This document shows positions 25,490 through 29,915 of a stretch of DNA of 35,824 nt, one piece after another. Under the pieces are notes generated by a model, which did no database searches, had not been told where the DNA came from, and saw only the letters and a list, made by a program, of their open reading frames with translations. Position numbers and translations under genes: made by a program. The stretch's first letter is position 1, and every line of letters starts with the position of its first letter. The DNA comes from Nitrospirota bacterium (GTDB lineage Bacteria; Nitrospirota; Thermodesulfovibrionia; Thermodesulfovibrionales; UBA6898): NCBI GenBank assembly GCA_021814475.1, contig JAKAIE010000030.1, positions 1 through 35,824 on the forward strand, in the 5' to 3' direction.

Positions 25490-25912
25490 ATGCTCGTAGG
25501 TTACAACACCAACATTCCCTATAAGGGAAACCTGTACCATGTCCAGACTGAAGACAGCGGGCTGAAGAATCCTGTCATCACTACGCTTCTTTATTTCAAG
25601 GGGACAATACTTTCGTCCAAGAAGATCAGCTACGCCCACATCGCGGCAAACCCCGATTACAAGGAAAAGGTCCGGGAGCTGATGAAGGAGCAGCACAAGG
25701 CAATGATGAAAGAGCTCATCAGCGGCAGACATACAGGCGATGCGGAAGGCTCGCCACAGGGTGGGGATACGATCGCGGAGGATGCGGGGGCAAAGCCCGG
25801 CCAATCCTCTCCCGCCGCGACGGATCAGCCCCCCCCGGCCACCAGCAACGAGGGCGCGGTCAGGAGTCTGGACGACATCCTGCTGGATTTTATCATCAAT
25901 AAAGGCAAATAA
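25490..25912 (+). CDS. uncharacterised small protein heading the ftsEX operon
   Basis: A 140-residue cytoplasmic-looking protein without signal peptide or TM helix. The N-terminal 70 residues look like a folded domain (MLVGYNTNIPYKGNLYHVQTED, then ITTLLYFKGTILSSKKISY), followed by a charged helix rich in Lys/Glu/Met. From about residue 82 to 122 it is low complexity (Gly, Pro, Ala, Asp), and it ends with a short hydrophobic-acidic peptide, SLDDILLDFIINKGK. I recall similar proteins in Deltaproteobacteria and Nitrospirota without a named function. It lies 15 bases upstream of ftsE. The disordered linker with a terminal peptide suggests an adaptor that docks on a partner, which is inference. 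Confidence 0.75.
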   Translation: MLVGYNTNIPYKGNLYHVQTEDSGLKNPVITTLLYFKGTILSSKKISYAHIAANPDYKEKVRELMKEQHKAMMKELISGRHTGDAEGSPQGGDTIAEDAGAKPGQSSPAATDQPPPATSNEGAVRSLDDILLDFIINKGK

Positions 25913-25927
25913 GACAGAATTGTTCCC

Positions 25928-26590
25928 ATGATACAATTTTCGAACGTTACCAAGGATTACGAGAACCAGACGGCCCTGAGAGACATCTCTTTTGTGATCG
26001 AAAAGGGAGAAATGGCGTTCATCACCGGCCCCAGCGGATCCGGAAAGACCACTCTTCTCAAACTTATCTATTCGGCCGAAAAACCGGACAGGGGAAACAT
26101 CTCCGTGGCCGGCTGGGATCTGGATCAACTGAAGGCGTCCAGCATCCCCTACCTCAGGCGGAACATAGGGGTCGTGTTCCAGGACTTCAGGCTCCTTGGA
26201 AACAGGAATGTCTTTGATAACGTTGCGATGGCCCTGCGCATACGCGGCATGGGAGAGCGGGAGATCAGAACGAAGGTGTTCGAAACCCTCAAGTCGGTCA
26301 ACCTCCGGCATAAATCAGACAGCTACCCGAAGGGGCTCTCCGGCGGCGAGCAGCAGAGGGTGGTCATCGCAAGGGCGATGGTTGCCGACCCCACCGTGCT
26401 CCTGGCCGACGAACCGACGGGCAATCTCGATCCTGACACTGCCGAGAGTGTGATGAGGACCTTCAAGGATATCAATGCACGGGGCACGACAATGCTGATC
26501 GCCACCCACAACCGCGAGCTGTACCGGAATACAGGCAGAAAGGTGATCCGTCTCGAAGGCGGAACACTTGTCGGAGTGGGCCCGGGATGA
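25928..26590 (+). CDS. ftsE: cell division ATP-binding protein FtsE
   Basis: The 220-residue ABC ATPase of the FtsEX complex, which couples ATP hydrolysis at the division site to activation of peptidoglycan hydrolases. Walker A is GPSGSGKTT (about residues 36-44), signature LSGGEQQR (about 138-145), Walker B LLADEPTGNLD, and H-loop IATHN. Length and sequence are typical (MIQFSNVTKDY start). No strong ribosome site precedes ATG 25928. The stop overlaps ftsX as ATGA, so the two subunits are made together. Confidence 0.97.
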   Translation: MIQFSNVTKDYENQTALRDISFVIEKGEMAFITGPSGSGKTTLLKLIYSAEKPDRGNISVAGWDLDQLKASSIPYLRRNIGVVFQDFRLLGNRNVFDNVAMALRIRGMGEREIRTKVFETLKSVNLRHKSDSYPKGLSGGEQQRVVIARAMVADPTVLLADEPTGNLDPDTAESVMRTFKDINARGTTMLIATHNRELYRNTGRKVIRLEGGTLVGVGPG

Positions 26591-27465
26591 GCATGTCCCC
26601 TTATTCATTCAGACTGGCTGCACAGAGTCTCCACAGGGAAAAATGGATCAATCTCCTTTCGGTGCTTACAATCGCCTCCGGACTCCTGGTGATCAGCGTC
26701 GCCCTTCTGGTTGCCTACAATGTGAACGCGGCGACTGGAAAACTTCCGGAGAAATTCGCCCTGACCGTCTACCTCAACGATAATCTGGGCAGGGAGAAGA
26801 TCGACGCGCTCATCGGCGCCCTGAAGAAGAAGCAGTCGGTTGCTCAGGTCCGTTTTATTCCGAAGGACGAGGCGATGAAGGAATTGAAGACCATGCTGAA
26901 GAATGCCAACTATGTCTTTGAGGGCCTCGATGAAAATCCCTTGCCGGACTCCCTGGAAATCAGACTGAAACGGGAAGCGGTCAGCCCGGAAGAAGTAAAG
27001 AAACTGACCGGGGACATAGGCAGAATGCAGGGCGTCGCAGAGATCGATTACGGAGAAAAGTTTCTGGCCGCCCTCCATTCGGTAAAATCCGGGGTAAGAA
27101 CGGTCGGCCTCTCGATCATCACGATCATCGTCGCAGGAATCATCTTCGTCTGTTACAGCACTGTCAAGATCTTGTTTTACCGGCGGACCGAGGAGATCGA
27201 GACCTTTAAGCTGCTCGGCGCCACGCGGGCATTTATACGTGCCCCGTTCATCATCGAGGGAGGGGTGATCGGGATGGCAGGAGGGCTCATCAGTCTGATG
27301 TCGGTATATGTGCTGTACTATGTCGTTCTCACCAGGATGAGCAGCGTCGTACCTCTCCTGTCAAACATCCTTTTCCCCCTCGATCTTTTTCTCCTGCTGC
27401 CTCTGTCCGGTCTGCTGCTCGGCGTCGCCGGTGCGGTGATCGCTGTCGGAAGGCTCCGCTACTGA
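26587..27465 (+). CDS. ftsX: cell division membrane protein FtsX
   Basis: The 292-residue permease-like partner of FtsE. A cytoplasmic N-terminus leads to TM1 (about 23-45), a periplasmic domain of about 125 residues rich in charged residues, then TM2 (about 172-195), TM3 (about 220-245) and TM4 (about 265-287). The periplasmic domain is the known docking site for EnvC-type activators, and the gene for one follows directly. ATG 26587 overlaps the ftsE stop, and the ftsX stop overlaps the next start as TGATG. Confidence 0.95.
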   Translation: MSMSPYSFRLAAQSLHREKWINLLSVLTIASGLLVISVALLVAYNVNAATGKLPEKFALTVYLNDNLGREKIDALIGALKKKQSVAQVRFIPKDEAMKELKTMLKNANYVFEGLDENPLPDSLEIRLKREAVSPEEVKKLTGDIGRMQGVAEIDYGEKFLAALHSVKSGVRTVGLSIITIIVAGIIFVCYSTVKILFYRRTEEIETFKLLGATRAFIRAPFIIEGGVIGMAGGLISLMSVYVLYYVVLTRMSSVVPLLSNILFPLDLFLLLPLSGLLLGVAGAVIAVGRLRY

Positions 27466-28604
27466 TGCCCGCTGCCGCATCTATCCTGCTCCTCCTTTTC
27501 CTCTTTTTCCCGCAACATGCCTCCGGAGCCCACTCTCCTGAGGAAGAATACAAGAATATTCAGGAAAAGATGCTCGAACAGAAGAAAAGGCTGAGTGAGG
27601 CGCAGGAACGTGAACATTCCATTCTGGGCGAGATCGACGAGGTCAACGAGAGGCTCGGGAAGATAGAATCCGAACTCGGCGGGTACAAACGGGACATGGG
27701 AAAGACAGAGGCAGAGATCAGATCCGTCGATGCGGAGATCGAAAAGACCCGCGCGAAACTCGACCGGCAGAAAAGCTGGCTGAAGCGAAAACTCAGGACG
27801 ATTCACCGGTTCGGATATTCCGCCGATACGATTGTCCTGCTTCTGAGTTCTTCGGACGTTTCCCAGACAATGAGGATGATAAAGTACCTTGAGCGTATCA
27901 CCAGCCATGAACATGCCCTGCTCGGCAATTACCGCAAAGACCTCGAAGACCTGAAGATAAAGCAGGGCAGGCTGCAGGCCCTCAGGGCAAATCTCAAAGT
28001 CACCGCGGATAAGGTCAGAACAAAGGAAGGCGAACTGGCAGACCAGAGACGGTCCAAAGAAACGATCCTGGACAGCGTAAGACACGAAAAAGCGGCCCGC
28101 CAGAAGGTCCTAGCTGAACTGAAGGCCGCCTCGAAGCGCATGCTCGACATCATCACAGAATCGGCCAGGACAGACACCTATACCGCAACAGGCTTCGCAC
28201 GGCTCAAGGGAAGGCTTTTGTGGCCGGTCGACGGCAGGATCGCGGTCCCCTATGGCACGCACAGGGATCCGCAATTCGACACGCCCGTTTTCAGAAACGG
28301 CGTGCACATCGAGACCGCGCCGTCCGCAGACGCAAAAGCGGTCTTCGGGGGAAAGGTCATCTACGCCGAGGGGTTCAGGGGGTTCGGTCAGCTGATCATC
28401 GTCAACCATGGCAGCGGGTACAACACGCTCTACGGCAATCTTTCGGAGATTTTTTCAAAGGTTGGAGATATAATAAGGGAAAACCAGGTGATAGGAAAAG
28501 TGGGAATGTCGGGGGTTCTGAACGCCCCGGGCCTTTATTTCGAAATCCGGTACAAAGGGAAACCTCTCGATCCTGCACAGTGGTTGCGACACAGAAGAAA
28601 ATAG
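27465..28604 (+). CDS. EnvC-like murein hydrolase activator with degenerate LytM domain
   Basis: A 379-residue periplasmic protein. A signal peptide (about 1-23) is followed by a long coiled coil (about 24-225, Glu/Lys/Arg-rich heptads), then a C-terminal M23/LytM domain (about 250-375). The zinc ligands of active M23 peptidases are not kept: the first motif reads GVHIETAPS, without the Asp of HxxxD, and the HxH position reads LYGNLS. It should therefore be an activator of cell-wall amidases, as EnvC is, not an enzyme. FtsEX controls EnvC through its coiled coil. The gene overlaps ftsX by one base. No amidase gene is in the window. Confidence 0.88.
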   Translation: MPAAASILLLLFLFFPQHASGAHSPEEEYKNIQEKMLEQKKRLSEAQEREHSILGEIDEVNERLGKIESELGGYKRDMGKTEAEIRSVDAEIEKTRAKLDRQKSWLKRKLRTIHRFGYSADTIVLLLSSSDVSQTMRMIKYLERITSHEHALLGNYRKDLEDLKIKQGRLQALRANLKVTADKVRTKEGELADQRRSKETILDSVRHEKAARQKVLAELKAASKRMLDIITESARTDTYTATGFARLKGRLLWPVDGRIAVPYGTHRDPQFDTPVFRNGVHIETAPSADAKAVFGGKVIYAEGFRGFGQLIIVNHGSGYNTLYGNLSEIFSKVGDIIRENQVIGKVGMSGVLNAPGLYFEIRYKGKPLDPAQWLRHRRK

Positions 28605-28622: not shown

Positions 28623-29915
28623 ATGCCAGGTAAAAAAATCATAGCTATATGGTTGCTGGTCGTTGCGATCGCGGCGACGGGCATTTCGATCGGAAGGCTT
28701 TCCGTAAGCAGCGTGAGCGCGGCGGGAGAAGGTTACGAAGAGTTGCGGACATTCACCGAGGTGATGTCCATGATCAAGAAGCACTACGTCGAAGAGGTGA
28801 AGACCAAAGACCTCATTTATGGTGCGATACGCGGGATGCTCAGTTCCCTTGATCCCCATTCGAGCTTCATGCCCCCGGATGCGTTTAAAGACATGCAGGT
28901 CGAGACAAAAGGAGAGTTCGGGGGGCTCGGGATTCAGGTGGGCATAAAGGACAAGGTCCTCACCGTGATAGCGCCTATCGAAGATACCCCCGCTTCCCGC
29001 GCAGGCATCAAGGCCGGGGACAAGATCGTCAGCATCAGCGGCGTATCCACCAAGGATATCACTCTTCAGGATGCGGTTTCGAAGATGAGGGGGGCTCCGA
29101 AGACCCCGGTGACCATCGGCATTATGCGCGAGGGCTGGGAAAAAGCCAAAGACTTTACGCTGATCAGGGACATCATAAAGATCAAGAGCGTGAAGGCGAA
29201 GATGCTTGAGGGGAAGATCGCATATATCAAGCTGACCCAGTTCCAGGAACAGACCGCCGCAGACCTGAACGACGCTCTCTCCACACTGGATGCTCAGAAG
29301 TTCAACTCGATCATCCTCGACCTCCGTAACAATCCGGGTGGGCTGCTCAACAGCTCGATCGATGTAGCCGGCGATTTTCTGCCAAAGGGAAAACTGGTCG
29401 TCTACACCAAAACGCGTTCGGGAGAAAAGTCCGAATTCCTTACCGAGGGCACCAAGTATTATTCCCAGCCGATGATAGTCCTTGTCAATCAGGGCAGCGC
29501 CAGCGCGGCCGAGATCGTTGCCGGAGCGCTGAAAGACTGGAACAGAGCGGTCATTCTAGGGACACAGACATTCGGCAAAGGGTCCGTGCAGACGGTCATC
29601 CCGCTGAGCGACGGCGCGGGGCTGCGCCTGACCACCGCCAAATATTATACCCCGAATGGGACGTCTATTCAGAACACCGGCATTACTCCGGATATCGTCC
29701 TGAAGCTCGAGGCGAAGAACGGCGCGAAGGAGCACCCGGTCCTCAGGGAACGGGACCTCGCGCACCACCTGAAAAACGAGCAGTCGGATCTGAAACCCGA
29801 GGAAACTGAAACAGCACCGCTCGAGGTGGATGAAAAAGATGATGTCCAGCTTCAGCGTGCAATAGACATACTGAAGACCTGGAATGTCTTTAAAGGCCTT
29901 CCGAAGGCCTCGTGA
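28623..29915 (+). CDS. ctpA: C-terminal processing serine protease (CtpA/Prc family, S41)
   Basis: A 430-residue periplasmic protease. An N-terminal signal anchor (about 5-25), a PDZ domain (about 85-175, GGLGIQVGIKDKVL and PASRAGIKAGDKI), and an S41 core with the Ser/Lys dyad: S294 in GSASAAE and K319 in TFGKGSVQ, spaced 25 residues apart as in Prc. A Lys/Glu-rich tail ends it. Family members trim C-termini or degrade periplasmic substrates, including peptidoglycan hydrolases in some bacteria. ATG 28623 is ten bases after GGAGG. Its place after ftsEX-envC suggests control of cell-wall hydrolysis. Confidence 0.94.
   Translation: MPGKKIIAIWLLVVAIAATGISIGRLSVSSVSAAGEGYEELRTFTEVMSMIKKHYVEEVKTKDLIYGAIRGMLSSLDPHSSFMPPDAFKDMQVETKGEFGGLGIQVGIKDKVLTVIAPIEDTPASRAGIKAGDKIVSISGVSTKDITLQDAVSKMRGAPKTPVTIGIMREGWEKAKDFTLIRDIIKIKSVKAKMLEGKIAYIKLTQFQEQTAADLNDALSTLDAQKFNSIILDLRNNPGGLLNSSIDVAGDFLPKGKLVVYTKTRSGEKSEFLTEGTKYYSQPMIVLVNQGSASAAEIVAGALKDWNRAVILGTQTFGKGSVQTVIPLSDGAGLRLTTAKYYTPNGTSIQNTGITPDIVLKLEAKNGAKEHPVLRERDLAHHLKNEQSDLKPEETETAPLEVDEKDDVQLQRAIDILKTWNVFKGLPKAS

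Follow-up and report, generated by a model that had tools for sequence, protein, structure and literature searches.

The window, the whole 35,824-nucleotide stretch of Nitrospirota DNA analysed here, carries on its forward strand a genuine open reading frame of 140 codons that heads a set of cell division genes (Table 1). The frame opens with ATG and its stop codon lies 15 nt 5′ of ftsE; the start is backed by conservation, with M1 retained in 71 of 72 homologues, and the members of this alignment of 72 open with the same N-terminus, M-L-x-G-x-N-T-N. Downstream, ftsX overlaps ftsE by 4 nt and the envC-like gene overlaps ftsX by 1 nt, so that the gene set reads as one operon. The first-pass annotation had put the protein directly before ftsE-ftsX-envC-ctpA, and the shared strand, the 15-nt gap, the overlaps or short gaps between genes and the profile matches all agree with that placement. 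Scans for promoters and terminators around the 140-codon gene gave nothing above chance level.

Table 1. Features of the romY-ftsEX locus, numbered from the first letter of the window
Feature	Position	Strand	Basis and remarks
romY homologue, 140 aa	25490..25912	+	NCBIfam NF053858 RomY_Nterm; homologues in Nitrospirota and Myxococcota
RomY N-terminal domain, residues 1-80, four strands and one helix	25490..25729	+	AlphaFold2, conserved residues
Gly/Pro/Ala-rich linker, residues 81-125, variable, disordered	25730..25864	+	low pLDDT, high column entropy
C-terminal peptide SLDDILLDFI, residues 126-135, conserved	25865..25894	+	entropy, motif counts
ftsE	25928..26590	+	TIGR02673 FtsE, 291 bits (cut-off 264.85); starts 15 nt past romY
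ftsX	26587..27465	+	PF18075 FtsX_ECD and PF02687; 4-nt overlap with ftsE
envC-like M23 peptidase/murein hydrolase activator	27465..28604	+	PF01551; best NCBIfam match EnvC, under its cut-off
ctpA-like S41 peptidase	28623..29915	+	PF03572; TIGR00225 prc over its cut-off

Judged by its profile match, the 140-residue protein is a Nitrospirota member of the RomY family. Residues 1-80 match NCBIfam NF053858 RomY_Nterm at E 4.3e-33 and 113.6 bits, covering positions 1-80 of the 83 in the model and lying well over its curated cut-off of 50, and a search of the whole genome with the same model scored the protein at 114.5 bits; the model spans the N-terminal domain only, with the linker and tail outside it. 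The earlier description of the protein as uncharacterised and of no known function is thereby superseded. Candidate Pfam families, SnoaL and GerD, gave sub-threshold matches only. A sequence search of the PDB with the RomY alignment found no related solved structure, Foldseek with the RomY model returned no match at E < 0.001, and the best VIA-align matches (Z up to 6.4) were scattered across unrelated folds, such that no fold relative is claimed. The same genome also encodes a second RomY-domain protein of 257 residues (L044:979-1752, minus strand, contig 60), in which RomY_Nterm (57.5 bits, cut-off 50) is followed by TPR repeats; similar frames of 249-280 residues are found in many genomes of the order.

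The anatomy of the protein, proposed earlier from the letters alone as a folded domain at the N-terminus that a disordered linker joins to a C-terminal peptide, is borne out by both structure prediction and column entropy. With the 72 aligned homologues as input, AlphaFold2 predicts a confident fold for residues 1-80 (mean pLDDT about 96; strands 5-11, 14-22, 29-36 and 39-47, helix 57-77), a disordered linker (pLDDT about 47-56) and, at moderate confidence, a tail helix over residues 127-138 (pLDDT about 69-79). Within the RomY domain G4, N6, H17, Q19, E21, G38 and Y48 are invariant, and M65, Q68 and H69 nearly so. This alignment was drawn from tail-bearing sequences; over it, column entropy averages 1.49 bits in the domain, 2.99 in the linker (81-123) and 1.31 across residues 124-135. 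Conservation of the tail is thus on a par with that of the domain and does not extend to the linker, the pattern that the first reading had expected. In an unselected non-redundant set, 58 of 77 Nitrospirota and 27 of 44 Myxococcota proteins bear the tail motif, as opposed to 0.014% of shuffled sequences. Tail ends of another kind exist as well: seven Myxococcota loci (L188-L193 and L195) carry a different acidic-hydrophobic C-terminal end on RomY, e.g. DLSLTELVEAFIGG.

In Myxococcus xanthus, where it was described in 2022, RomY binds the roadblock protein MglB with low affinity and stimulates MglB GAP activity on the Ras-like GTPase MglA (PMC9481161). Both partners are encoded in the present genome, where mglB (164 aa, Robl_LC7) lies directly before a canonical mglA (195 aa) on contig 35, with one copy of each. 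In its MglA the usual conserved Asp is replaced by Thr (LYTVPGQ), and Thr78 is reported as the MglA hallmark (PMC3000849). We followed co-occurrence across two phyla, in 198 evenly sampled Nitrospirota and 113 Myxococcota genomes, many of them draft assemblies in which an absence may be an assembly gap. Among the Nitrospirota genomes, 75 have both RomY and MglA, 2 RomY only, 13 MglA only and 108 neither; the corresponding counts for RomY and close MglA are 62/2/2/47 in Myxococcota and 23/1/0/8 by Nitrospirota family (p about 9e-7), the family counts being tallied by hand from the result tables and the family-level count being the one statistic that takes kinship into account. Association with FtsX is weak, at 71/6/98/23 when counted by Nitrospirota genome (p 0.04), and at family level p is 0.44; of the 198 genomes, 169 carry FtsX, and RomY is missing from 98 of those. 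Conversely, the four genomes of family f15, three of which are 98-99% complete, retain RomY and MglA together with a roadblock protein, and FtsX is not detectable in them; two have ctpA immediately after romY, as though the cluster had lost ftsE, ftsX and envC. Taken together, the counts and the f15 genomes indicate that RomY follows the polarity GTPase, not FtsEX. Three RomY genomes (G007, G146 and G175) are without canonical MglA and MglB, and in them romY still stands beside ftsE.

Presence of the C-terminal tail was compared in the same way with MglB and with ftsE linkage. By a hand count from the tables, MglB is found in 52 of 55 Nitrospirota genomes with a tail-bearing RomY and in 9 of 20 with a tail-less one. 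The three tail-bearing exceptions (G016, G031 and G175) are also without canonical mglA, and an assembly gap is therefore possible there; in G146 and G007, MglB and tail are both absent. In nine genomes of family f21, RomY is 78-86 residues long and lacks a tail, MglA has about 60-69% identity, and the whole genome yielded no roadblock domain, while romY adjoins ftsE or ftsX in 8 of the 9. Tail-less RomY is linked to ftsE in 11 of the 20 tail-less genomes overall, and tail-bearing RomYs without an adjoining ftsE exist (e.g. L075 and L087). Given the MglB counts and the tail-less f21 romY genes beside ftsE, the tail thus tracks MglB better than it tracks ftsE linkage. The nine genomes of this one family, MglB-less and tail-less at once, offer a clue that the tail serves MglB rather than FtsE, and the most likely role of the tail is to give a firmer hold on MglB or on a roadblock protein akin to it. 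A strict rule by which the tail is present if and only if MglB is present was rejected, as it is broken by families f9, f12 and f15 and several Myxococcota, where MglB is present and RomY is tail-less or different. MglB alignment columns checked for residues that track tail loss gave no clear signal. The f21 loci with RomY and MglA and no roadblock protein are L104-L111, L162 and L167-L170; FtsX open frames in this family run to about 690-740 residues, twice the usual length, and are possibly fused, e.g. to the M23 protein. In family f9 (L163-L166) the RomY domain continues into a long C-terminal region of another kind, giving proteins of 185-272 aa, a glycosyltransferase-like gene adjoins romY at the three loci read, and mglB and mglA lie elsewhere in the genome.

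The acidic-hydrophobic character of this short peptide, its position after a disordered linker and the place of its gene in a division operon would also be compatible with mimicry of the FtsZ C-terminal peptide, by which the RomY tail would bind readers of the FtsZ tail such as FtsA or FtsE. The pattern known for FtsZ tails is LxIPxFL. That pattern occurs in 0 of 121 RomYs, proline occurs in 0 of 85 tail motifs, and RomYs that have no tail adjoin ftsE likewise, making such mimicry highly improbable.

Gene order around romY is strongly conserved nonetheless, in line with the earlier expectation that the gene would lie next to ftsE in most genomes. Of the Nitrospirota genomes with listed positions for both RomY and FtsX, 53 carry the two genes on a single contig, and romY precedes ftsE in 52 of these: the two are direct neighbours in 32, 20 have room for one or two intervening genes, and in the remaining genome they are 39 kb apart. 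In Myxococcota, ftsE or a diverged FtsE-like gene directly follows romY on the same strand at 25 of 46 loci, and at one diverged locus Pfam identifies an ABC ATPase and, after it, a protein that bears an FtsX extracellular domain. The FtsE-like gene after romY is strongly diverged at L188-L193 and L195, and at L190 an ATPase without the usual LSGGE signature is followed by an FtsX-like gene. At one further locus (L103, genome G283) the romY match contains an in-frame stop with ftsE adjoining, and mglB and mglA are kept in the genome. A literature search found no paper that names RomY together with FtsE, with the proviso that a Deferribacteres link may show in the romY-locus figure of PMC9481161, and the romY-ftsE synteny looks to be the new part of these observations.

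What this synteny means can be read in more than one way. RomY may simply have come to sit in a stable, well-expressed division operon through an old accident of gene order, co-transcribed with ftsEX and functionally uncoupled from it. The neighbourhood does admit unrelated genes, since a split transketolase (tktN-tktC) forms the intervening pair in the loci read, many though not all of the 20, and romY is located elsewhere in several lineages, including f9, G170 and many Myxococcota. The linkage has, however, been retained over two phyla, even where FtsEX has diverged and the tails differ, and we consider pure co-transcription a tenable reading that nevertheless falls short of even odds. The two-gene split transketolase itself, seen at L038:5396-7265 and many other loci, separates romY from ftsE in several families of Nitrospirota.

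In a second reading RomY, perhaps in addition to its GAP-related role, serves as an adaptor that physically links FtsEX or the divisome to MglA/MglB. It would deliver GAP activity to the septum, letting the two new poles begin free of MglA-GTP, with the tail bound to FtsE, FtsX or another division protein. A cytoplasmic FtsEX adaptor was also the proposal of the first-pass annotation, and the part of it that stands is the conserved ftsE linkage: romY lies before ftsE with zero to two genes between in 52 of 53 Nitrospirota genomes and directly before ftsE or a diverged ftsE at 25 of 46 Myxococcota loci, its stop overlaps the ftsE start in several genomes, and it keeps its ftsE neighbour both where MglA and MglB are lost (G007, G146 and G175) and at loci with a very diverged FtsEX (L188-L193 and L195). 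Polarity proteins are moreover allocated at cytokinesis in M. xanthus (PMC11255338). The functional part fares less well, because RomY presence follows MglA, FtsX occurs without RomY in 98 Nitrospirota genomes, f15 has RomY without detectable FtsX, 11 of the 20 tail-less genomes are ftsE-linked, some tail-bearing RomYs (L075 and L087) have no ftsE beside them, and M. xanthus RomY functions without a reported motility gene nearby. An adaptor role is thus unlikely and not the best-supported function, which is that of a RomY co-GAP; direct contact between FtsEX and RomY may nevertheless occur. A broader version, in which RomY is a conserved bridge from the FtsEX divisome to MglA/MglB that marks division-born poles, and in which the tail-less RomY domain alone regulates MglA in the roadblock-less f21 genomes, strikes us as speculative and quite unlikely.

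The reading we prefer, with a probability of roughly 0.78 for the whole, is that the 140-residue protein is a Nitrospirota RomY which acts as an MglB co-GAP on MglA and is made together with the division operon. By homology, its N-terminal domain would bind the MglB roadblock dimer together with MglA-GTP, close to the nucleotide pocket of MglA, and RomY would raise MglB GAP activity such that MglA-GTP is removed from one cell pole. We infer that the linker holds a short C-terminal helix which most likely firms docking on the roadblock dimer, of MglB or a relative, and that the likeliest reason for romY heading ftsE-ftsX-envC-ctpA is joint production of the co-GAP and the new-pole machinery. 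Production of a co-GAP from a division operon would fit what is known of M. xanthus, where, at cytokinesis, polarity proteins are allocated to the nascent poles under a cyclase of the division site that is encoded in an operon with ftsB (PMC11255338). The nine f21 genomes have no roadblock protein, and RomY there therefore cannot act through MglB alone; genomes with RomY and MglA and no MglB suggest a RomY role that is independent of the roadblock GAP. RomY function is known from one gliding bacterium. The conserved synteny would open a connection between polarity and division of the cell to testing, and if the romY-ftsEX linkage across two phyla has a reason, it provides a concrete candidate for setting polarity on poles made by division.

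Set against the characterised system, the protein shares with its family a folded RomY N-terminal domain followed by a region of low confidence, as in the AlphaFold2 model obtained here, and its C-terminal tail motif is common to Myxococcota RomYs. It is shorter than M. xanthus RomY, at 140 versus 188 residues, and differs in evidence and in setting: binding to MglB and MglA-GTP has been demonstrated for the M. xanthus protein, no motility-related gene is reported to flank M. xanthus romY, and the main text of the study makes no mention of FtsE for it, whereas the Nitrospirota gene heads ftsE-ftsX-envC-ctpA (PMC9481161). The closest model for the tail comes from RomR of the same polarity network, in which a C-terminal helix after a disordered linker docks on the roadblock protein MglC (PMC12719032). 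RomY and RomR have the combination of linker and C-terminal helix in common, and we claim no homology between the two tails; the partner is demonstrated for RomR, whereas for the RomY tail a roadblock partner would be its counterpart by analogy.
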